Shown here in pieces: positions 1,122 to 20,446 of a stretch of 20,446 nt of DNA. Under the pieces are notes generated by a model that saw only the letters and a program-made list of their open reading frames with translations, was not told the origin of the DNA and did not search any database. The stretch spans positions 1 to 20,446 of the IMG/VR virus record IMGVR_UViG_3300021364_001255, one strand, 5' to 3'. The stretch is from a virus. Numbering within the stretch: the stretch's first letter is position 1; the number at the start of each line of letters is the position of its first letter. The position numbers and the translations under genes were made by a program.

Positions 1122-1518
1122 AGTTATTTCCTATTTGGGAGTTTTCTTTTCCAGATTTTAATTCTAAATTATTAAATCCATTTCCTTTAATTATTCCTTT
1201 TTTATGGTGTGCTACACAAAACTCCCAAAAAAACTCTAGCTTTTCGTTAGAAGATAATTTTTTCCATGCTTTGTAACCACCAGGAAATTTATTTGGTGTT
1301 TTATGAGTTTGCCAATTAGCGAAAACTCTATACATCCATCTGTGTAATGATTGGTTTTTTCCAAATACAGTATATCCTGTATCTTTTTTTACGTGACCGC
1401 ATCTTTTCATAGTTATACCATCAATGACCATACCATTGATATGAAAAAAATATGGCTTTCCGTCTATTATTTGTACAGGAGATAAGTCCTCAAGGTTAAC
1501 ATTTTTTACGTTTCTCAT
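1108..1518 (-). CDS. Unidentified protein, possibly HNH-endonuclease related
   Basis: The product has 136 residues and is basic. Residues 59-66 (HRWMYRVF) resemble the first His segment of phage HNH homing endonucleases (x-H-R-x-x-y-x-x-F). Residues 115-130 (FNNLELKSGKENSQIG) resemble the C-terminal NL...eN element of that family. The usual middle H-I-D/N motif is not clear; AHHKKG at 103-108 is the only candidate. It could be a degenerate HNH protein or an unrelated DNA-binding protein. The ATG overlaps the AAA+ ATPase stop (TAATG), and a strong GGAGG site lies inside the end of that gene, so the two are co-transcribed. Confidence 0.55.
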   Translation of the reverse strand: MRNVKNVNLEDLSPVQIIDGKPYFFHINGMVIDGITMKRCGHVKKDTGYTVFGKNQSLHRWMYRVFANWQTHKTPNKFPGGYKAWKKLSSNEKLEFFWEFCVAHHKKGIIKGNGFNNLELKSGKENSQIGNNFENV

Positions 1519-2654
1519 TACACTACCTCCTCTTCAGAAGCTTCTTGAGTAATTGCACCTGTATCTACTTTAGTATAGAGATCCAGGAATGCTTCTTTAG
1601 TATCTAAATCAAATCTTGAGATACACATATCAATTGCTTTCATTCTGTTATTGAAGATAGAGAATGTTTGAACAATATGACATAACCTTCTTGTAGATAT
1701 TACTTCATCGACACCATCATCATAGAATGTTTTTCTGATAACATCTGCCCAAGTAACTAACTTGTCAGCAAAATCTTCATCAGCTTGACCAAATTTTTCC
1801 ATGTGTTTGATTACAATTTTCTTTTCAGTAACCAATGTTGGAAATGGTTGGTCAATAGAAACAGTAAATCTTTCTAAGAATGCTTCATCGATAATTGATG
1901 CTGCAGTAAATCTACCATCTTCGGAACCTTTACCTTTTGTGTTAGCAGTTGCTACTACATTAAATCCAGATGCCGGAGATATTGTTTCACCCGTCTTTTT
2001 AACAACAACAGGTTTACCTTCAAGTATACCTTGAAGACACATAATTTTATTTGTAGCTCTATCGATTTCATCGAGTAGTAACACTGCACCATTCTCCATC
2101 GCTTTAAGAACTGGACCTTTAGAGAAGACAGTTTCACCATCAATGAGTCTGAACCCACCAAGTAAATCATCTTCATCTGTTTCTGGATTGATTTGTACAC
2201 GTATAAACTCCCTATTTAGTTTTGCACATGCTTGTTCTACCATGAAAGTTTTACCATTACCTGATAACCCAGATATGTAAGTCGGATAGAACATTTCTGA
2301 CTTTAAGATTTTGACAACATCATGGAATGAACCCCATGCTACGAATGTGTCGTCTTTTTGAGCAAATGTTTTTTCGTCATTTACTATTGATTGCATTGCC
2401 ATAGCTTTACCTGGCATTATGTTAGTTTGTGCAGGTGTAATTGTTTCTCTAATAGGAACAATGACTGATGATAAATCATATACACCAACTTTGACTCTAT
2501 TGTCTGCAGATAGCAAACAGTAGTAATCTTTTCCAGTGTAGCCATTTGCTTTAGCTATGTCAACGATTTGTGACTTTTTAAATTCATTAGTGTCTGGATA
2601 CTGTGTAGCCAATTCACTAAGTATTTTTTGTGTAGATATTTTCAAGTTATTCAT
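1518..2654 (-). CDS. MoxR/CobS-type AAA+ ATPase
   Basis: The 378-residue product has a clear AAA+ core: Walker A GLSGNGKT (129-136), Walker B VLLLDEID (191-198), a sensor-1 Asn in ATANTKGKG (235-243) and an arginine-finger-like ER (261-262). The first 75 residues look like a small helical, possibly winged-helix, domain. This layout fits the MoxR/CobS branch, whose members work with VWA-domain partners as chaperone-like remodelling or chelatase machines. Marine T4-like phages carry related genes annotated cobS. The gene directly upstream is such a VWA protein, which supports a two-component complex. A dedicated host-type promoter precedes it, with GGAG about 12 bases from the ATG. No other cobalamin gene is visible, so a cobalt-chelatase role is not supported. 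Confidence 0.85.
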   Translation of the reverse strand: MNNLKISTQKILSELATQYPDTNEFKKSQIVDIAKANGYTGKDYYCLLSADNRVKVGVYDLSSVIVPIRETITPAQTNIMPGKAMAMQSIVNDEKTFAQKDDTFVAWGSFHDVVKILKSEMFYPTYISGLSGNGKTFMVEQACAKLNREFIRVQINPETDEDDLLGGFRLIDGETVFSKGPVLKAMENGAVLLLDEIDRATNKIMCLQGILEGKPVVVKKTGETISPASGFNVVATANTKGKGSEDGRFTAASIIDEAFLERFTVSIDQPFPTLVTEKKIVIKHMEKFGQADEDFADKLVTWADVIRKTFYDDGVDEVISTRRLCHIVQTFSIFNNRMKAIDMCISRFDLDTKEAFLDLYTKVDTGAITQEASEEEVV

Positions 2655-2691
2655 AATATAGTTTTTCTCCTTTTCATCAATTTATATATCT

Positions 2692-2723
2692 ATTATACCA
2701 TAGTACGGAGGCAATGTAAATAG
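2692..2723 (-). promoter_or_regulatory. Host-type early promoter of the AAA+ ATPase gene
   Basis: Minus-strand TTTACA (2720-2715), 17-base spacer, TATAAT (2697-2692) with extended TGG. Upstream lies the TTTCAC...AGC block shared with two other copies. The predicted start is near 2685, giving a leader of about 30 bases before the ATG at 2654. Confidence 0.85.
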
Positions 2724-2760
2724 CTGGAGTGAAAAAAGTAGCTATTATTTTCACATTGCC
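2710..2760. repeat. Interrupted inverted repeat across the VWA stop and the AAA+ promoter
   Basis: GGCAATGT (2710-2717) pairs with ACATTGCC (2753-2760), and AATAGCT (2719-2725) pairs with AGCTATT (2740-2746), giving up to 15 pairs with an internal loop. It contains the last codons and stop of the VWA gene and overlaps the -35 of the next promoter. A nested GTGAAAA/TTTTCAC pair (2729-2735 with 2748-2754) offers an alternative fold. It may be a weak terminator, an operator or chance. Confidence 0.4.
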
Positions 2761-4934
2761 ACCGCTTTACCAAAGTTAGTAAGTAAAGTTTTATTAAGTT
2801 TCTTTGACTTACTATGTTTTTTGAAAGCTTGAGTTAGTTTACCCTTACTAGCATCTTCATCTACTAAAAACTCTTCAGCTTCAGTATCGATTTGCTTTGC
2901 TTTCAATAAGTAGTATTGATCATATCCAAAGACATTATCAAATGTACATACTTTTTGTCTTGCAAACATTTTTTGACAATCTTTTTTGAAATCTTGAGTT
3001 TCGTCCCAATCTGCATCTGGATGTTTTAGATATCCGACATCTTCAAGCTTTCTTCTGTATTCATATTGGTCTTGAGCTAAGAAAAACCCTAGTGTAGTTA
3101 CCCCATAGTTCTTTCTTAAATTATCAAGTAAAGCTGTAGTACATCTAGTTCTCATATCTCTAGTTTTAACTTTATTGCCGTCAATGTTAATAATATAACT
3201 ATCTGCATAATATGTATCAGACATCATTCTTTTATCATTTAACTTTTCATCTTTACAAATACTCATGCTATTAGTATCTCCGTCAGACATAACAACAAAG
3301 TTCATATTTTCAATATTGTGTTTTGCTCTAAACTTTTTAATTAATCTAGTACATACCATTAGTGAAGTATTAAGTGGTGTTGAACCCCAGTCTTCTTTAG
3401 GTGAACCATATTCTGAAATTCTAGCTCCACTCCAACCACTTTCCATAATCATTCTAGTATGTAAGAATTGTAGAGCTTCTTCAAAATCTTTCTTTTTAAG
3501 ACCACTATGTATTTGTTGTACTAGTGAAAGACTTTCATGATATATCTCAGCATCTTTTTGTATGCCTCTAGGTAAGTAATTAGTTGTAGTAAATCCATAA
3601 ACATCAAATGGAATATTCACAGCTTTACAAAATAAGATAGTATGTATAAGTTGGTCAATAACTTTATGCATTGTTCCACTCATAGAACCTGAAAAATCAA
3701 TCAGCATAAACATACCATGATTTTTAGCATCAGCTAATTGTGTAACTCTTGAAAAAATATCATCGTTAGTTTTGTATGACCATAACTTATTTACATCAAT
3801 AGAACCTGTCCTTGCAGTTTGAGCTCTTGTATATCTGTAAGCTGCTTTTCTCATTTCAAATTCTTTCACTGCGTAGTTCACATCTTTTTTAACATCTTTA
3901 ATGTATGATGGATATTCTAGTTTAGCTTCGTCCATTTTTTCTTTAGCGTAAGAATAGTAACCCTCATCATTCGTAATTTTTTCAATCATTCTTTGAGTGT
4001 ATAGTTTTCTTTCTTTTGCTATCGTATGATAATCAAATACAACTCTATCTCTAATATCTTTTGAAAATTCATTACATACAACTGTACCATACTCACCAAC
4101 CTTTGGTTTTTCTAGGAGGTCTTCTTCTTTCCTTCTAAAATTTTCGTCAGTGATGGAAACATCTTCATCTCCGCCATGGCTAGTTTCATTTCCAGTATCT
4201 TCGTCTGCCTCTCCTTCGCTTTCTTCTGAAGGACCATCAGACGGAGTCTTTTGTTGATTATTTTCTTGTTCATCGTTATTCTCCATATCATCATGACCCA
4301 TGTTTGATGTTGGGTCTTCATTATTGTCATTATTGTTTTCGTCCTCATCATTACCATCATTAGCTGGTGGTTTCATAAGGTCTTCTTGATTTTCTTTAGT
4401 GTATGCTAAAACATCTCTACATAATTGTACCACTTCTTCAAATGATTCTGTAGTCATGGCTCTATCCATAAATACTTGTTCATCAGAATTAAAAGGTACA
4501 TCAATAAGATTACCAATTTTAGCTTTAAGGTTAATTTTATCAATGAGTTTAGTTTGATCCCAATCAATATCGGATAAGTCACCAAAGAACTCATCATCAA
4601 ATAGTTTTCTATAACCTTTACTGAATGAATTAACTAAACCAGGATATCTAGTTTTTACTTTTCTTTCGATTCTAGCATCTTCAATTACATTAATATATGA
4701 TCTTGGACAACCTTCTAGTTGTTCTGGACTGTCATGCCAACCCTCAAATGGAGTTTCCAAAGCATGTCCCACCTCGTGTCCGATTAATAAATCATATACA
4801 TCTTTACCCATGTCTTTCCAGTTAGGAAGACCTAAAACTCTATCTTTAATGTCAAACCATGCAGTATGATAATTACCGTGTTGAATGGTAATATTCTCTT
4901 TGGCTAGTAATTTGGCTAGGATACCTTTATTCAT
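2751..4934 (-). CDS. VWA-domain protein with metallopeptidase-like N-terminus (CobT-like)
   Basis: The 727-residue product has three parts. The N-terminal part carries an HExxH zinc motif (GHEVGHALE, His53-His57) and, 28 residues later, VIEDARIERK (83-92), whose Glu85 could be the third ligand. Residues about 190-270 form a very acidic Asp/Glu/Asn-rich linker. The C-terminal part is a von Willebrand A domain with a complete MIDAS: DFSGS (413-417), Thr519 and the Asp551 region (VVMSDGD). Acidic linker plus VWA recalls CobT, the partner of CobS; VWA proteins paired with MoxR ATPases are a recurring chaperone-like system. The ATPase is the next gene. A promoter and an AGGAG site eight bases from the ATG precede it. 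Protease activity and the target are unknown. Confidence 0.85.
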   Translation of the reverse strand: MNKGILAKLLAKENITIQHGNYHTAWFDIKDRVLGLPNWKDMGKDVYDLLIGHEVGHALETPFEGWHDSPEQLEGCPRSYINVIEDARIERKVKTRYPGLVNSFSKGYRKLFDDEFFGDLSDIDWDQTKLIDKINLKAKIGNLIDVPFNSDEQVFMDRAMTTESFEEVVQLCRDVLAYTKENQEDLMKPPANDGNDEDENNNDNNEDPTSNMGHDDMENNDEQENNQQKTPSDGPSEESEGEADEDTGNETSHGGDEDVSITDENFRRKEEDLLEKPKVGEYGTVVCNEFSKDIRDRVVFDYHTIAKERKLYTQRMIEKITNDEGYYSYAKEKMDEAKLEYPSYIKDVKKDVNYAVKEFEMRKAAYRYTRAQTARTGSIDVNKLWSYKTNDDIFSRVTQLADAKNHGMFMLIDFSGSMSGTMHKVIDQLIHTILFCKAVNIPFDVYGFTTTNYLPRGIQKDAEIYHESLSLVQQIHSGLKKKDFEEALQFLHTRMIMESGWSGARISEYGSPKEDWGSTPLNTSLMVCTRLIKKFRAKHNIENMNFVVMSDGDTNSMSICKDEKLNDKRMMSDTYYADSYIINIDGNKVKTRDMRTRCTTALLDNLRKNYGVTTLGFFLAQDQYEYRRKLEDVGYLKHPDADWDETQDFKKDCQKMFARQKVCTFDNVFGYDQYYLLKAKQIDTEAEEFLVDEDASKGKLTQAFKKHSKSKKLNKTLLTNFGKAVAM

Positions 4935-11590: not shown

Positions 11591-12061
11591 TTATTTAATT
11601 TCGAAATAAGTATATGCGAATGTGATATCTACTTGTACAAAATCTAAGTCACTGGATTGTGTATTAAACTCTACACCTGTTATTCCTGTAGGAAATAATC
11701 CTTTAAACTCAATTTGTTTATTTACATTATTGTGAGAACTCAAAATCAATAAGGTACCGTCTTCTCTCTGGCTTTCTGAATCGCCATGTTCTAAAATATG
11801 CTTCATCCAATTGAATGTTTCAATATAGTTTTCCATATTTTCAGTAACATTTATACGTAGTGTTAAATCATCAAATTGTAATCTATCACCTGTTGATGCT
11901 AAGTTCACTCCTCTATATGGAGTAGATACAGGTGGTAAAGTTACTGATGGTAATTGAGCGGCTATACAAAAGTATTCAATATTTGCGTATTTGCCACTAT
12001 TGATTTTAAACTGAAACCCTACTGGGCTTAAAAAGTTTTTATTTGTTGTTAATGTACTCAT
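11591..12061 (-). CDS. 3: Head-proximal tail tube tip protein gp3
   Basis: The 156-residue product shares the tube-protein pattern with gp19: an N-terminal FQFKI strand, AAQLPSVTLPPV, then RGVNLASTGDRLQFDDLTLRI, a helix with NWMKHIL and a C-terminal strand ending YTYFEIK. The YTYF ending and FNWM helix fit T4 gp3 (about 176 residues), the ring that caps the tail tube at the head side and sets tail length. Position directly after gene 23 and before uvsY is the usual place of gene 3 in marine T4-like phages. The late promoter ends five bases before the ATG and no ribosome site is visible, so the late mRNA looks leaderless. Confidence 0.82.
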   Translation of the reverse strand: MSTLTTNKNFLSPVGFQFKINSGKYANIEYFCIAAQLPSVTLPPVSTPYRGVNLASTGDRLQFDDLTLRINVTENMENYIETFNWMKHILEHGDSESQREDGTLLILSSHNNVNKQIEFKGLFPTGITGVEFNTQSSDLDFVQVDITFAYTYFEIK

Positions 12062-12128: not shown

Positions 12129-13448
12129 TTACTCCATGATTCCATTTACTTTGAAAATTCTGAAGTATACGTTCTGTCTATCTGTACCTAGGCCTGAACC
12201 TGCTACAAATGGGTTAGCTACCATACCGTATCTTGTTTTAAATCCAATTCTTGGTTGGAAATCTTGCTCACCGACTGCTTTAACCATTGTTAAAGGTACG
12301 TATGGGCAATAGAAAACACCAGCATCGTATGGGTTAGCACCTCTGTAACCAACACATACAAAGTCTTCAGTTGCGTATGGATCGATGTATACTTTTACTC
12401 TTCCGTTAAGAACACCAGCAAATGTATTACCTGTGTCATCAACATTTAAGTTAGCACTTAAAGCAGGAGTATAGTCTAATAAACCAGCTGCAGCAAGAGC
12501 AGATGCTACGTCTGAAGAACATAGGATAAAGTTACCTTTACCTCTTCTTGTTTCTTTAGCAATAACGTTTGCTTCTCTCTCGATTTGCATGATAAGACCT
12601 TTGAACTTCTCTACCATCCATCTGCCGTCTGAATCAGTCTCAACATCAAAAGCACCTTTCAGTACTACGTTTGATTGTAGAGCACCTAATTTAGCCTTAA
12701 CAAGAATTGTTCTCACAACCTCTCTGTTAATTTCAGCTAAAATTTCAGATGAAAGAATGTTAGCAAGTTCGCCTTCAGCATCCAATCCATGGATTGCTTT
12801 AAGATCTTGTGCTAATTCCATTGTATACTCAGCTTTTAAAGCTCTTGACTGAGCAGTTACTGTTGTTTTCTCGATTGAGAAAGCCATTTCAGCAAAAGCA
12901 GGTGAGCCTGAAGTACCTAGAGCTTCAGCATCAGCTGTAGTCTTACCAGCACCGAAAGTGTGAGTAGTATCGTCATCAGCTAAAGTTGTAGCATCACCGG
13001 TAGAACCGTCTACGCCTTCAAGACCAGTTGGACCAGCTTCTTGAGTTGTACCGTCACCTGAGAAAGCTGTATCAGCTTCATTAAATAGTGCTTCAGTACC
13101 TGACTGGTTAGTATAGTGTGATTTCATTGCAAAGATAAGTCCTGTAGGACCACTCATTGGCTGAACGCCAGCGATATCATAAGCAATTAAGTTAGGCATT
13201 GCTCTTCTAACTAAAGAAATTAAAACTGGGTCAAAGTTATCAATACCTGAACCTGTTTTGTTAACAGCAGCTGCCTCAGAAATATAATTTCCTTGAGCTT
13301 GCATTCTTTCTTCTCTTAGAGCAACTTCCTGGTTTTCTAACAATCTAGCTGTAACAGCTTTCTTGTATGATGAGGATATTTCAGGTGCACTGTCGTGCTC
13401 TAAAACTGGACCCCATTTTTCCATAAGTTTTGCGTCTGCATTAAACAT
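12129..13448 (-). CDS. 23: Major capsid protein gp23
   Basis: The 439-residue product (T4 gp23 about 521) shows the conserved PNLIAYDIAGVQPMSGPTGLIFAM segment, the GLDAEGELANILSSEILAEINREV helix and the C-terminal RIGFKTRYGMVANPF, all characteristic of T4-type capsid proteins with the HK97 fold. The N-terminal about 58 residues form the scaffold-binding propeptide. ISE followed by AAA (56-58) fits the I/L-x-E cleavage rule of prohead protease gp21, so the mature protein would begin at Ala59. A separate vertex gene 24 is not in the window. AAGGGG eight bases before the ATG serves as ribosome site, and a terminator follows the gene. Confidence 0.97.
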   Translation of the reverse strand: MFNADAKLMEKWGPVLEHDSAPEISSSYKKAVTARLLENQEVALREERMQAQGNYISEAAAVNKTGSGIDNFDPVLISLVRRAMPNLIAYDIAGVQPMSGPTGLIFAMKSHYTNQSGTEALFNEADTAFSGDGTTQEAGPTGLEGVDGSTGDATTLADDDTTHTFGAGKTTADAEALGTSGSPAFAEMAFSIEKTTVTAQSRALKAEYTMELAQDLKAIHGLDAEGELANILSSEILAEINREVVRTILVKAKLGALQSNVVLKGAFDVETDSDGRWMVEKFKGLIMQIEREANVIAKETRRGKGNFILCSSDVASALAAAGLLDYTPALSANLNVDDTGNTFAGVLNGRVKVYIDPYATEDFVCVGYRGANPYDAGVFYCPYVPLTMVKAVGEQDFQPRIGFKTRYGMVANPFVAGSGLGTDRQNVYFRIFKVNGIME

Positions 13449-13469: not shown

Positions 13470-14594
13470 TTATTTAGTAAAATTTGTTATAGCTTGTGTG
13501 TATCTAGACATAGATTCTGATAAATCAACTTCTTGATTATCTTCACCTAATAGACTATCAACTTCGTCTACTGATTCACTAACTTCTTTCTTGAAGTATG
13601 ATTCTTTAACAACTTGTACTTTTGTTTCAAAGTTTTCTTTGTTATCAAATTCAATATCTTCAACTAAAGATGCTAATTTTTCAGCTTCAGTTTCAGCAAG
13701 CCCTTCAGATTTTTCTCTAATTACTTCAGCTCTAACCAAAACTTGATTAGATTCATGTAATTTGATATTATCTTCTGTGGTTTTATTTAAAGTTTCTTCG
13801 AGTTCAGTAACTTGTTCGTTGAGTTCATCAACTAAGTCCACTTTACCTTCCGGTACTTCGATGTAGTGCTCTTTGAACACACCTTGTAGTGAAGTCATGA
13901 AGTCTTCAGCAATTTCGGTTCTTAAACCGTTATGAATTGCAACTTCATTCTCTTTCATCCAATTTTCAACTACGTAGTTAAGATATGAATCTACCTTTTC
14001 TACAAGTGAAGATTGTAAGTCAGATACTTCTTCTTCAAGGTTTTGCGCATATTCGCTTTCCAGTCTTTCAACTTCTTGAGTTAACTTAGATGTTAATACG
14101 GCTTCGAATATAGCTCCCGCCTTTCCTCTGAATTCATCAGAAAGTGTTGCTTCCTCTTTAACCAATGCATCTAAATCCTCATCAAAATCTACTGATTCTA
14201 CTTTAGCTTTAGCTCCAGGAACTGGTGCTTTTTTAACTTTCTTAATAGCAGCATCTGCAGATTTAATTGATTCTTCCTCAGAAGTTTCGTCAACCTTCGC
14301 CATTTTTGCAAAAAGTTTTTGCGCGTCTTCTTTTCTAGCTTTCTTAAGCATATCAACAGCAGCTTGGATTACACCAGCTTTAGTTTTTGGAATATTAACA
14401 GCAGGAGTTTCTTCTTTAACATCCTCCTCTTCTTCTTCCTCTTCTTCAGCTGCTACTTTCTTAGCCTCTTCAAGTTCTTCAGTTTCCTCGTTGACTTCAA
14501 CGTTCTCTTCTTCTGAACTCTCCTCTTCTGAAAGTACTACCTCTTCTGTAGCTATGTCTTCTGCTAGTTCATTTTTAATAGCGTCTTCTGACAT
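13470..14594 (-). CDS. 22: Prohead core scaffold protein gp22
   Basis: Position between protease gene 21 and capsid gene 23, strong acidity and long helical segments identify this as the main core scaffold. It has 374 residues, longer than T4 gp22 (about 269). Residues about 14-65 are almost continuous Glu with few other residue types, followed by a Lys/Ala-rich stretch (68-130). Helices around 185-215 and 245-300 look like coiled coil. Many L/I-x-E tripeptides suit digestion by gp21 during maturation. The extra acidic N-terminus is unusual and may replace the acidic tail missing from the gp67 homologue here. TTAGGAGA lies about eight bases from the ATG. Confidence 0.9.
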   Translation of the reverse strand: MSEDAIKNELAEDIATEEVVLSEEESSEEENVEVNEETEELEEAKKVAAEEEEEEEEDVKEETPAVNIPKTKAGVIQAAVDMLKKARKEDAQKLFAKMAKVDETSEEESIKSADAAIKKVKKAPVPGAKAKVESVDFDEDLDALVKEEATLSDEFRGKAGAIFEAVLTSKLTQEVERLESEYAQNLEEEVSDLQSSLVEKVDSYLNYVVENWMKENEVAIHNGLRTEIAEDFMTSLQGVFKEHYIEVPEGKVDLVDELNEQVTELEETLNKTTEDNIKLHESNQVLVRAEVIREKSEGLAETEAEKLASLVEDIEFDNKENFETKVQVVKESYFKKEVSESVDEVDSLLGEDNQEVDLSESMSRYTQAITNFTK

Positions 14595-14608: not shown

Positions 14609-15268
14609 TTATCTTTGAGAGTTTAGTTTAGAGAGGAAATTTTTAAAAGCACGAATCTCAACCTCTGGGAGGTTTTTGCTCGAAGTACTTTTTATTTCAG
14701 TCTCAATTAATTCAATATCTTGTGGCTTAATGATTCCATTATCCCATACCCATTCAACACCTTCCATAACTCCATTTACAAATGCAGATGGAGCAGATGG
14801 GTCTTGAACGATATCTACTGTGGCTAACATAAAGTCATCCCCCACGTATTGGACACCATTCTTTGCTACAAGACTTCCCATACCACGACTTGACACACCA
14901 AGCTTAACACCACCTTCGAGTAAACCTTCGACGATTTTACCCATTGGGGTTTTAAGTATTGATGCCTTTCCTACAACATCATTACCCTGCCAATGCAGAT
15001 TATTGATTTTGTGTGAAACCTTATCAAGGTTAACTGTTGGACCCTCTGGATGGTTTAATTCCCCAACAGCTCTCCCCGTTTTAACTTGTTCGGTTACGTA
15101 TTTCTCTACAGCTTTTTCAAGTGTTTTCTTTTCGTAAATACGACCGTTTCTATTTTTTTGGTTAGATTGCATAAAGACGCCTTCGATGAAATAATCTTTT
15201 TCACCGTTCTTCTTGGCCTCACATATAATATCTAACTCTTGTTCTATATGTTCAGTAATAAGTTTCAT
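14609..15268 (-). CDS. 21: Prohead protease gp21
   Basis: The 219-residue product (T4 gp21 about 212) has the signature of phage prohead proteases: the KNRNGRIYEK segment (38-47), GELNHPEGP (69-77) with the catalytic His73, and GVSSRGMGSL (124-133) with the catalytic Ser126 or Ser127, plus VDIVQDPSAP (151-160). It cleaves the scaffold and capsid propeptides after I/L-x-E sequences and finally itself. An AGGAG site within the end of the gp67-like gene precedes the ATG by about five bases. Confidence 0.95.
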   Translation of the reverse strand: MKLITEHIEQELDIICEAKKNGEKDYFIEGVFMQSNQKNRNGRIYEKKTLEKAVEKYVTEQVKTGRAVGELNHPEGPTVNLDKVSHKINNLHWQGNDVVGKASILKTPMGKIVEGLLEGGVKLGVSSRGMGSLVAKNGVQYVGDDFMLATVDIVQDPSAPSAFVNGVMEGVEWVWDNGIIKPQDIELIETEIKSTSSKNLPEVEIRAFKNFLSKLNSQR

Positions 15269-17560: not shown

Positions 17561-19246
17561 TTAACTAGAAATCTCGGAGAATTCTACTCCGGATCTTGTT
17601 GCTATGAAATTCAACTGAATGAAATTAATACTTCTTGCTGGCTTGACAAAGATGTCAGCAACAAATTTATTACCATCAATAACAGCTGATGTGTTGTTAG
17701 TGTCGTCACAGATTACTGAGAAGTCTGTTAGACCACGTCTTCCTTTTACGTCTCTCAAGAACGGTTCAACTAAATTTTTAAACTGTGCTCTTGTAAATTC
17801 GTCATTAAATTCGAATAACTGGAATTTTGCAGCAGTACTTACTGCTTTCTCTAAGACTATAAATAATCTTCTTACATTTATTCTATCAAACGCAGATGGT
17901 CTCTTAAGCAATGTTTTATCTCCAAATAATACAGTACCTTGTCCTGGTGCTGATATAATTGGATTCACTCTTGCTTTATAAAGAGAATCTCTCTGAGCTT
18001 GTGTTGGATTAAATGCTAATTTAGTTATTCCTAATAGATTACCTCTATTAAATCCTGCTGGTGAGAACCATGCATCTGCTAATCTTTCAGATTTAGCACA
18101 TAGTCCAGCCATATGTCCAGAAGCTGCAATATATCGATAAACATCATTGTATTTATCGTAAACATATAGTGAGCTTGAATCACATGAACCATAAGAACTG
18201 TTATCTAAACCATCAGCAAACCCTAGAACAGCAGTTAGCTGTGCTGATGCAGATAATCCTTCTGTGTCACTTATTTCAGGTGATACAAAAGCCATACAAT
18301 CCTTTCTAGCAGCTGCTATACCAATTACATGGTTAGCTGTTGCAACAGCTGCAGCTGGACAGAATAATAAAGATATATCCACAGTTTCAGCGTCTGCTAA
18401 ATTATTATAGGCAGTTTGCAATTCTGATTCGTCCATTGCCGTTGTTCCATCTAATCCACCTGATAGTGCAATAGATATTACATCATCGCCTGTATTTGCA
18501 AATACATTAGCTGCTGAAACAGTTTTACCTGCATCTGCAATTTGGTCTGCATCTGCCGGATTTCCAACATAAATATATTCTGATTTAGCATTAATAACAT
18601 CTTTGAAATACAAAGAGTTACCTGCGCTATCTTTTGCATCAGAAGCTTGTGAAAGAAATTCATAAACCTCTAATACAGTACCTTTAGTACCTGTAATTAA
18701 ACCACCTGCGTCTTTTACAACGATATGTAGTTCATCATCAGAATTAGCAACTATTGGTGCTGCATACTCTGATGTTCCAGGTGCTTCTGAAAATAATCCA
18801 GAATGAGCCCAAGCAGTAAAATTACCAGATGTTACGCCCTGATGGACGTATTCAATACTGATACTATCTCCTAATGCTCCTGGGTATCTTGCAACCCAGT
18901 TTTGTGTAGCGGAAAAATTTATACCGCTTAACAAATCCTCATTTTGGACTTCAATTCCAGTGCCGTTACAGGAGTTTAATTCCCCTGCTATTTCACCTCT
19001 AACCACTTTTAGTGCGTTTCCATATTTTAAATATGACGCTGCTACTAGAAAATGGCCGAAGTTGTTGTTGTCAGGATTACCAAATTTTTCAGCAAGTTCG
19101 TTTTCAGTACTTACTTGAATAACTTTGTTCACCGGACCCCATTTAAAGTCCCCTGCAAAACCACCAATGTTGGTAGCCACCGCTGGGACGACGTTTGTTG
19201 CATCTACTTCTGATACTGAAACGCCTGGTGATACTTGAAATGCCAT
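17561..19246 (-). CDS. 18: Contractile tail sheath protein gp18
   Basis: The 561-residue product is shorter than T4 gp18 (about 659) but has both conserved ends: the N-terminal QVSPGVSVSEVDATNV (4-19) and the C-terminal FLRDVKGRRGLTDFSVICDD, NKFVADIFVKPARSINFIQLNFIATRSG (about 525-555). The more variable middle forms the outward-facing domains. Hexameric rings surround the gp19 tube and contract on infection. A GAGGAT site precedes the ATG and a late promoter lies about 70 bases upstream. The reduced length points to fewer or smaller surface domains than in T4. Confidence 0.96.
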   Translation of the reverse strand: MAFQVSPGVSVSEVDATNVVPAVATNIGGFAGDFKWGPVNKVIQVSTENELAEKFGNPDNNNFGHFLVAASYLKYGNALKVVRGEIAGELNSCNGTGIEVQNEDLLSGINFSATQNWVARYPGALGDSISIEYVHQGVTSGNFTAWAHSGLFSEAPGTSEYAAPIVANSDDELHIVVKDAGGLITGTKGTVLEVYEFLSQASDAKDSAGNSLYFKDVINAKSEYIYVGNPADADQIADAGKTVSAANVFANTGDDVISIALSGGLDGTTAMDESELQTAYNNLADAETVDISLLFCPAAAVATANHVIGIAAARKDCMAFVSPEISDTEGLSASAQLTAVLGFADGLDNSSYGSCDSSSLYVYDKYNDVYRYIAASGHMAGLCAKSERLADAWFSPAGFNRGNLLGITKLAFNPTQAQRDSLYKARVNPIISAPGQGTVLFGDKTLLKRPSAFDRINVRRLFIVLEKAVSTAAKFQLFEFNDEFTRAQFKNLVEPFLRDVKGRRGLTDFSVICDDTNNTSAVIDGNKFVADIFVKPARSINFIQLNFIATRSGVEFSEISS

Positions 19247-19342: not shown

Positions 19343-20446
19343 CTAGTGATTTGTGCTATCATCCTTTCCTGCGTAATCACTTACCATAAATAATCTATTA
19401 GGATGTACACTAATTCTAAATTTGGTCATATCTTTACGATTAACTAACATTTCGGATGCAGTATCCTTTTCAGTTAACCCTATTTCCATCATATATTTTT
19501 TATTATTGAATGTGATTCCATGCTCTATTACTGGTCTTCTATCAAAAGCTTTAAGACCTCTTCTTGGTTCAGATATATCAATTATGTCACTTGTAAATGT
19601 AACACCGTTCTTTTTCCAAGTTACGCTATCTCCATCTATTTTCATTTCATCAACATGAAGCATAGTTGCTGATGCTGAATTACCTGTATCAAATTTAGCT
19701 CTGATAAGATTATTTTCCATACCATCAAGTCTTATGCTTTCAATATATCCTACTTCCTGTCTCATTAATGGTCTTCTATTATGATCATCACTAAACCATA
19801 ATAGTATTTCATTTAATACTTCAAAGTCAGAAATCTTTTTACCCTTTTTTCCTGTCTCTAAATTATACCCTAAGAAATGTGATCGTATACCTGGACTACC
19901 ATTAACTTCAAGTATATAAAACTTATCACCTACTTTACAATGGTCTACCCCACAATATGAAGCTCCTGTACACCTAGCTGCATTTATTACCAATTCTTTT
20001 TCCTCATCTGATAAACTATAAGGTAAAGTTTCAGCGCCTAAGTGTACATTATTTCTAAATTCCTTTCCGTCTTTTTTTCTTCTTTCAGCTGACCCTACTA
20101 TTCTATTGTTTACTACAAGTGTTCTGATATCCGATTCTAATTTAAAGTATTCTTGTATTAATAAATCAGCTTTAAATTTCCAAAGGGATTGAGCTACTGA
20201 TATTAATGAACTCATATCATTTACCTTTGATACACCAATACCTTGTGTTCCTCTTAATGTTTTAATAATTACAGGAAACTTACCACCTATTCTTTTATGT
20301 GCTTCCTCAATAGATTTAACATTATTAACTATAGCAGTTCTTGGTACTGATATATTATTTCTTTCAAGTGCAAGAGTAGATGTCATTTTATTATCACATA
20401 GTAGCATTGTTTCTAAATCGTTTATTAAAAAGAAACCAATGTTCTG
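19343..20446 (-). CDS. RimK-like ATP-grasp ligase fused to a RimB-like domain (partial, 5' end missing)
   Basis: The frame is open to the window edge. The in-frame ATG at 20407 is internal, because upstream codons (GFFLINDLET) continue the RimK pattern G-x-x-x-I-N, so the true start lies outside. Counting from that ATG, an ATP-grasp core is visible: FPVIIKTLRGTQGIGVSKV (44-62), LLIQEYF (82-88), VDHCKVGDKFYILEVNGSPG (154-173) with the metal-binding Glu-x-Asn. After about 215 residues a second domain follows: IRAKFDTGNSASATMLH (235-251) with DTG, and RRPVIEHGITF and LTEKDTASEMLVNR. These resemble RimB-type retropepsin-like proteins (PF05618). RimK adds glutamates to ribosomal protein S6 in some bacteria, and RimB works beside it. 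The substrate here is unknown. Confidence 0.85.
   Translation of the reverse strand, partial: QNIGFFLINDLETMLLCDNKMTSTLALERNNISVPRTAIVNNVKSIEEAHKRIGGKFPVIIKTLRGTQGIGVSKVNDMSSLISVAQSLWKFKADLLIQEYFKLESDIRTLVVNNRIVGSAERRKKDGKEFRNNVHLGAETLPYSLSDEEKELVINAARCTGASYCGVDHCKVGDKFYILEVNGSPGIRSHFLGYNLETGKKGKKISDFEVLNEILLWFSDDHNRRPLMRQEVGYIESIRLDGMENNLIRAKFDTGNSASATMLHVDEMKIDGDSVTWKKNGVTFTSDIIDISEPRRGLKAFDRRPVIEHGITFNNKKYMMEIGLTEKDTASEMLVNRKDMTKFRISVHPNRLFMVSDYAGKDDSTNH

Follow-up and report, generated by a model that had tools for sequence, protein, structure and literature searches.

What would a gene that joins a glutamate ligase to a retropepsin be doing among the structural genes of a phage? The question is raised by a viral contig (IMG/VR record IMGVR_UViG_3300021364_001255), which was analysed over positions 1 to 20,446, hereafter the window. 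At 19343..20446 on the minus strand, on which all window features given below lie, a 367-codon open frame with its stop runs off the contig end, so that its 5′ end is open, and encodes a RimK-type ATP-grasp domain followed in one reading frame by a RimB-type retropepsin domain. A first-pass annotation, made from the letters of the window, had proposed such a fusion, and both halves pass their Pfam cut-offs: PF08443 matches residues 18–189 of the window copy (19880..20395; E 2e-37, 128.9 bits versus a cut-off of 21) and PF05618 matches residues 232–353 (19388..19753), with scores on the fusion of 27.8 (window copy) and 28.7 bits versus a cut-off of 27. A separate search of the record confirmed both domain assignments. 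Relatives at 97% identity restored the 107 upstream codons that lie beyond the contig end, giving a full-length fusion of 474 amino acids and recovering the missing 5′ end to which the first-pass annotation had pointed. The window copy is without its own N-terminus, and the N-terminal tag described below is known from relatives, the nearest of them 97% identical.

We propose, with a probability of about 0.5 for the explanation as a whole, that T4-like marine phages would make this bifunctional enzyme late in infection, that it would enter the prohead by an N-terminal capsid targeting sequence (CTS), that the gp21 protease would trim the tag after [L/I]xE, and that the trimmed enzyme would be injected with the DNA, as T4 does with Alt and its internal proteins. 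Once inside the next cell, the enzyme would extend the C-terminus of a protein with glutamate through its ATP-grasp domain, ribosomal protein S6 being the most plausible substrate. The retropepsin domain would trim glutamate tails and/or stimulate the ligase, in the way that Pseudomonas RimB acts on RimK (PMC11957791). One polypeptide would in this way reset tail length on existing host ribosomes ahead of any phage gene expression. The parts of this proposal differ in strength: packaging and injection are probable, activity on glutamate is rather likely, if a little less so, and S6 is a tentative choice of main target.

The most informative part of the protein is its N-terminus, outside the window. 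Nearly all window-clade proteins start with the near-invariant 10-mer MExF[T/N]x[F/Y][L/I]xE, after which come a linker of variable length and the strand that opens the RimK fold. Across 41 distinct window-clade N-termini, position 4 is F or Y, position 7 F or Y, position 8 L, I or F and position 10 E (36/41), and positions 3, 6 and 9 vary. A second fusion clade, with Pelagibacter phage Mosig as its type and about 28% identical to the window clade, keeps the same spacing shifted by two residues: in 25 N-termini F6, Y/F9, I/L10 and E12 are constrained, F6 and E12 being invariant. Mutational work in T4 has assigned targeting to residues 4 and 7 and processing to residues 8 and 10, with gp21 cutting after Glu (PMC9026906), and T4 ipII and ipIII begin MKTYQEFIAE. 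Judged by sequence pattern, the fusion N-terminus looks like the T4 CTS with its gp21 cleavage site. The strict motif is present in 110 of the 139 fused proteins and the aromatic pair in 134, the exceptions falling mostly in clades with a hydrophobic-x-E site a few residues further on. About 0.1 strict matches are expected in shuffles; in Mosig the fusion alone has the motif among roughly 210 open reading frames (ORFs), and in the first 150 kb of T4, among ATG-initiated ORFs of at least 60 amino acids, ipII and ipIII alone have it. Once smaller ORFs are allowed, the strict scan also picks up T4 gene 61.1 (54 amino acids, L087:18966-19130), which starts MKTFKEFIKED and whose product may be an unrecognised internal protein.

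The processing machinery of these phages is in keeping with such a tag. Alignment with FLTE|A of T4 puts the ends of their gp23 propeptides at YISE|AA and FLSE|AA, and the fusion's FLTE or YITE therefore fits what their gp21 should cut. In the window, the gp23 major capsid protein (12129..13448; phrog_138) has the YISE|AA end, as aligned with T4 and Mosig gp23, and the gp21 prohead protease (14609..15268; phrog_207) is the presumed processor of the tag. For the Mosig fusion (Mosig_00005) the gp21-cut N-terminus would be expected after MQVQPFKNYLEE. The stand-alone RimK of Methylophilales phage Melnitz (L084:82-1131) starts TQKFSQFITE from a TTG start codon, and because this tagged protein has no retropepsin, the tag is, as far as sequence tells, older than the fusion or independent of it; the RimK of cyanophage S-RIM12 has no tag. 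CTS-like starts were also seen on other proteins of a window-clade phage (G001, 103 kb; L236 11896-20000, L237 1-476 and 14029-14652), which by sequence reading are PAP2-like and HAD-like phosphatases, a nucleotidyltransferase-like protein and unknowns. Some of these peptides are strict and some looser (4 strict versus about 0.1 expected), and together the proteins may make up an entire set that the phage injects.

The fusion is widespread and intact. Searches of viral contigs gave 156 relatives and then, with the alignment as query, at least 580. The collection holds 142 distinct proteins, of which 139 are full-length fusions; none of the 139 is interrupted by the kind of intervening stop that the first-pass annotation had named as a refutation, and with so many intact relatives an artefact or frameshift is ruled out. 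Both Pfam families were matched in 34/34 aligned members (PF05618 at E ≤ 0.01), and pN/pS values of 0.135 and 0.131 in the two halves show that both are under similar purifying selection. The remark that the gene lies next to structural genes is borne out by longer relatives, where the order is gp13, gp14, gp15, gp16, gp17, fusion, gp18, gp19, gp20, these names being positional and taken from the T4 order. The start codon of the fusion overlaps the end of gp17 (terminase), and gp18 (sheath) follows downstream. TATAAATAAT sites resembling T4 late promoters stand upstream of gp18, gp20 and the gp21 block (L006 7125, 9443, 11000) and none stands directly upstream of the fusion in that record; the fusion is probably read through from gp17.

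Outside the two fusion clades, a third, divergent copy is found in Yersinia phage YerA41, whose particles have been analysed by LC-MS/MS (PMC7354516); 'structural protein' is the record's annotation of this homologue and the basis of its structural status. Used as a query against viral contigs, the YerA41 copy gave no match. Melnitz and S-RIM12 have a RimK and no PF05618 anywhere in their genomes. The idea that all fusions go back to one deep event was considered and set aside: support is good for each of the two clades, but not for their branching relative to YerA41, Melnitz and S-RIM12. No cellular fusion in the RimK-RimB order was found in genome contigs, where a narrow scan that leaves cellular copies possible gave one Patescibacteria RimK-like match, and equally narrow plasmid scans gave only RimK matches over the ligase half.

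Both halves keep conserved catalytic residues of their families. The retropepsin half, modelled alone from 67 diverse sequences (pLDDT 80), matches RloA (9g58) with Z 14.0 at 2.3 Å, Legionella 2pma with 13.9 and RloA2 with 12.9, compared with Z 8–9 for retroviral proteases, and a profile of the PF05618 half finds 9g59, 9g58 and 2pma by sequence; the retropepsin fold expected of the C-terminal half by the first-pass annotation is thus upheld. The catalytic D, T and G and the family core residues are invariant. In the plainest departure from the family, Asn replaces Ala after DTG (catalytic motif at 19679..19690), and Ala at this position has been called characteristic of retropepsins (PMC12239564). 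What had been taken as an oddity of this one gene is the rule in the family: FDTGN occurs in 139/139 distinct full-length fusions, and in the sequences collected DTG-N is a signature of the phage fusion group.

The ligase half matches the solved RimK structures 7qys, 5zct and 4iwx. Its modelled fold aligns with 7qys at Z 22.0 over 279 residues and with 5zk6 at Z 21.9, in a full-chain model whose pLDDT is only 68.5, and 4iwx is likewise a fold match. For the RimK subfamily TIGR00768, a full-length relative scores 148.1 versus a cut-off of 143.4 and the truncated window copy 140.1. In Pseudomonas RimK, poly-glutamate is held by R64, R189 and N262, among others (PMC10092738); the equivalent residues R91, R215 and N289 (full-length numbering) are invariant in 34/34 aligned members, as is the E-V-N metal/glutamate-binding motif (E287, N289; 19901..19909), in which N289 aligns with N262. 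As for the other glutamate contacts, S68 corresponds to L95, and S7, R8 and S14 are not alignable.

The target is a further step away from the observations. To our knowledge, S6 is the only protein target known for both the RimK and RimB families. The phages also carry the ribosomal protein bS21, encoded in Mosig and in 6 of 18 records examined, among them each of the three window-clade contigs longer than 50 kb (G001:C1:7775-7912; G002:C1:45644-45781; G005:C1:69543-69683), and this hints at an interest in the 30S subunit. These two points together make S6 the leading candidate. A phage-encoded S6 was rejected as the target, no PF01250 being present in 10 records and none in the three window-clade contigs above 50 kb. 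According to published work, viral bS21 is incorporated into ribosomes, and translation by E. coli ribosomes was impaired by it, the authors suggesting that additional factors may be required (PMC6375957); that the fusion might be such a factor is speculation.

Several observations count against our proposal. S6, which the first-pass annotation gave as the bacterial RimK substrate, is not borne out as the target: the S6:glutamate ligase equivalog model NF007764 scores 96.9 versus 331 bits, far below its cut-off, and the RimBK hybrid of Desulfotalea psychrophila gave no S6 glutamylation in a published test (PMC11957791). The RimK-conserved loop LEGIE after SPG is replaced in the window clade and kept in Mosig, so that the amino acid added may differ in the window clade, where glutamate is less certain. 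DTG-N in place of DTG-A could mean weaker proteolysis. The Mosig-clade gene adjoins regA and DNA polymerase, outside the late operon; the YerA41 copy is without the tag; and in some clades at 58–61% the E of position 10 is displaced. In the open-access literature we found no virion proteomics or enzyme assay for this family.

Part of this evidence bears on other explanations of the gene. The tag and the gp21-like site would place the fusion in the head core, where it might already do its work, adding or trimming glutamate tails on core proteins as a second maturation enzyme. The gp22-like scaffold of the window (13470..14594, an open frame) contains an E8 run within its chain, and a linker of eight glutamates inside a protein is known to be cut by RimB (PMC11957791). 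Core processing would need no ligase, however, and the glutamate run is absent from gp22 of the fusion-bearing L062, L068 and Mosig; as the run is not kept across fusion-bearing phages, gp22 poly-glutamate was dropped as a conserved target, and we regard action inside the prohead as unlikely. Equally improbable, in our estimate, is a late cytosolic enzyme acting on host ribosomes or phage proteins in the producing cell, with an N-terminal motif that is coincidental or serves another purpose. The position of the Mosig-clade genes beside regA and DNA polymerase would suit such an enzyme, and the untagged cyanophage RimK makes an untagged cytosolic role conceivable; yet the motif is far above chance, stays at the exact CTS positions while the linker after it changes, and recurs in the second fusion clade and in the Melnitz RimK.

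Two further explanations concern the chemistry, and we rate both lower still. T4 heads contain acidic internal peptides, a precedent for a ligase that would make free poly-glutamate or another peptide in the head or the cell, the retropepsin setting its length. RimK does make free poly-alpha-glutamate and RimB stimulates RimK (PMC11957791), but a supply of ATP and glutamate in a sealed head is doubtful and the neighbouring genes give no pointer to a peptide product. Alternatively, the retropepsin half might be a built-in activator of the ligase and no protease, DTG-N marking the loss of cutting. RimB is known to regulate RimK activity (PMC11957791), and every phage copy departs from the characteristic DTG-A (PMC12239564); against this, the catalytic D, T and G and the core residues do not vary, and the domain is under purifying selection. 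Set beside these four, a packaged, injected editor of glutamate tails remains the explanation we prefer.

The combination of families is not new in itself. Of the bacterial accessions with rim genes, 12% have a RimB-RimK hybrid, and protease activity is known for one such hybrid (JBC 2025, PMC11957791), so the first-pass view that the two are normally separate proteins stands for Pseudomonas but not for these bacteria. The RimBK hybrid of D. psychrophila and other, mostly marine, bacteria likewise has a RimK ligase and a RimB retropepsin on one chain, and cleavage of S6 tails was demonstrated for its RimB part, the ligase part being the one negative for S6 above. It is cellular and has RimB at the N-terminus, whereas the phage fusion has RimK first, and no capsid-targeting N-terminus is mentioned for it. 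The separate RimK and RimB of Pseudomonas, and the RimK of E. coli, share with the phage protein the same two families, the conserved residues of the ATP-grasp and the DTG, and the three glutamate-binding residues; the phage protein differs in being fused, in having DTG-N rather than DTG-A, in the changed SPG loop (window clade) and in the extra tag. Phage-borne RimK genes are known from cyanophages (PMC6722890), and the cyanophage and Melnitz proteins ('ribosomal protein S6 glutaminyl transferase', phrog_2599) are phage-borne like the fusion, though without a retropepsin domain and, in S-RIM12, without the tag that Melnitz has. In R2K, another ATP-grasp clade, phage ligases have been proposed to modify host proteins by analogy with ADP-ribosylation (PMC4431377). 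T4 Alt and IPI–IPIII have in common with the fusion a CTS-like 10-mer, a gp21 site and presumed packaging and injection; Alt is an ADP-ribosyltransferase and IPI an anti-restriction protein, and none of them ligates amino acids or edits ribosome tails. We found no paper on a phage RimK-RimB fusion, on the reversed order or on a CTS on it in the open-access literature, most subscription journals lying outside that scope. Relative to the known bacterial hybrids, the reversed order, the phage setting and the CTS-like N-terminus appear to be new.

The remainder of the window is a standard T4-like late block of gp18, gp19, gp20, gp21, gp22 and gp23, with the gp18 tail sheath (17561..19246; phrog_23) as the next gene downstream of the fusion. 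Beyond the block lie a second tail-tube-like gene, UvsW and gp46/47. Melnitz has the closest major capsid protein (65%), ahead of the pelagiphages HTVC008M (63%) and Mosig (62%). The second gp19-like tail-tube protein directly follows gp23 (11591-12061), and Mosig has one at the same place. At 1518-4934 a MoxR/CobS-like AAA ATPase adjoins a gene classed by PHROGs as 'peptidase', a pair that recurs in Mosig.

Editing of ribosome tails by RimK and RimB is a known bacterial stress response, and no account of its delivery in phage virions turned up in the open-access literature. If our proposal is right, phages of the most abundant ocean bacteria would retune existing ribosomes ahead of gene expression. 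More doubtful than any of its parts, but worth stating, is the picture in which virions of abundant marine phages inject a dual writer and eraser of glutamate tails that would re-edit existing host ribosomes as infection begins and, together with the phage's own bS21, take over the 30S subunit, an amino-acid-ligating counterpart to T4 Alt. If right, the proposal may also help to explain the block that viral bS21 put on translation by E. coli ribosomes (PMC6375957). The pairing of a CTS with a gp21 site would offer a simple sequence test for other injected effectors in uncultured T4-like phages.
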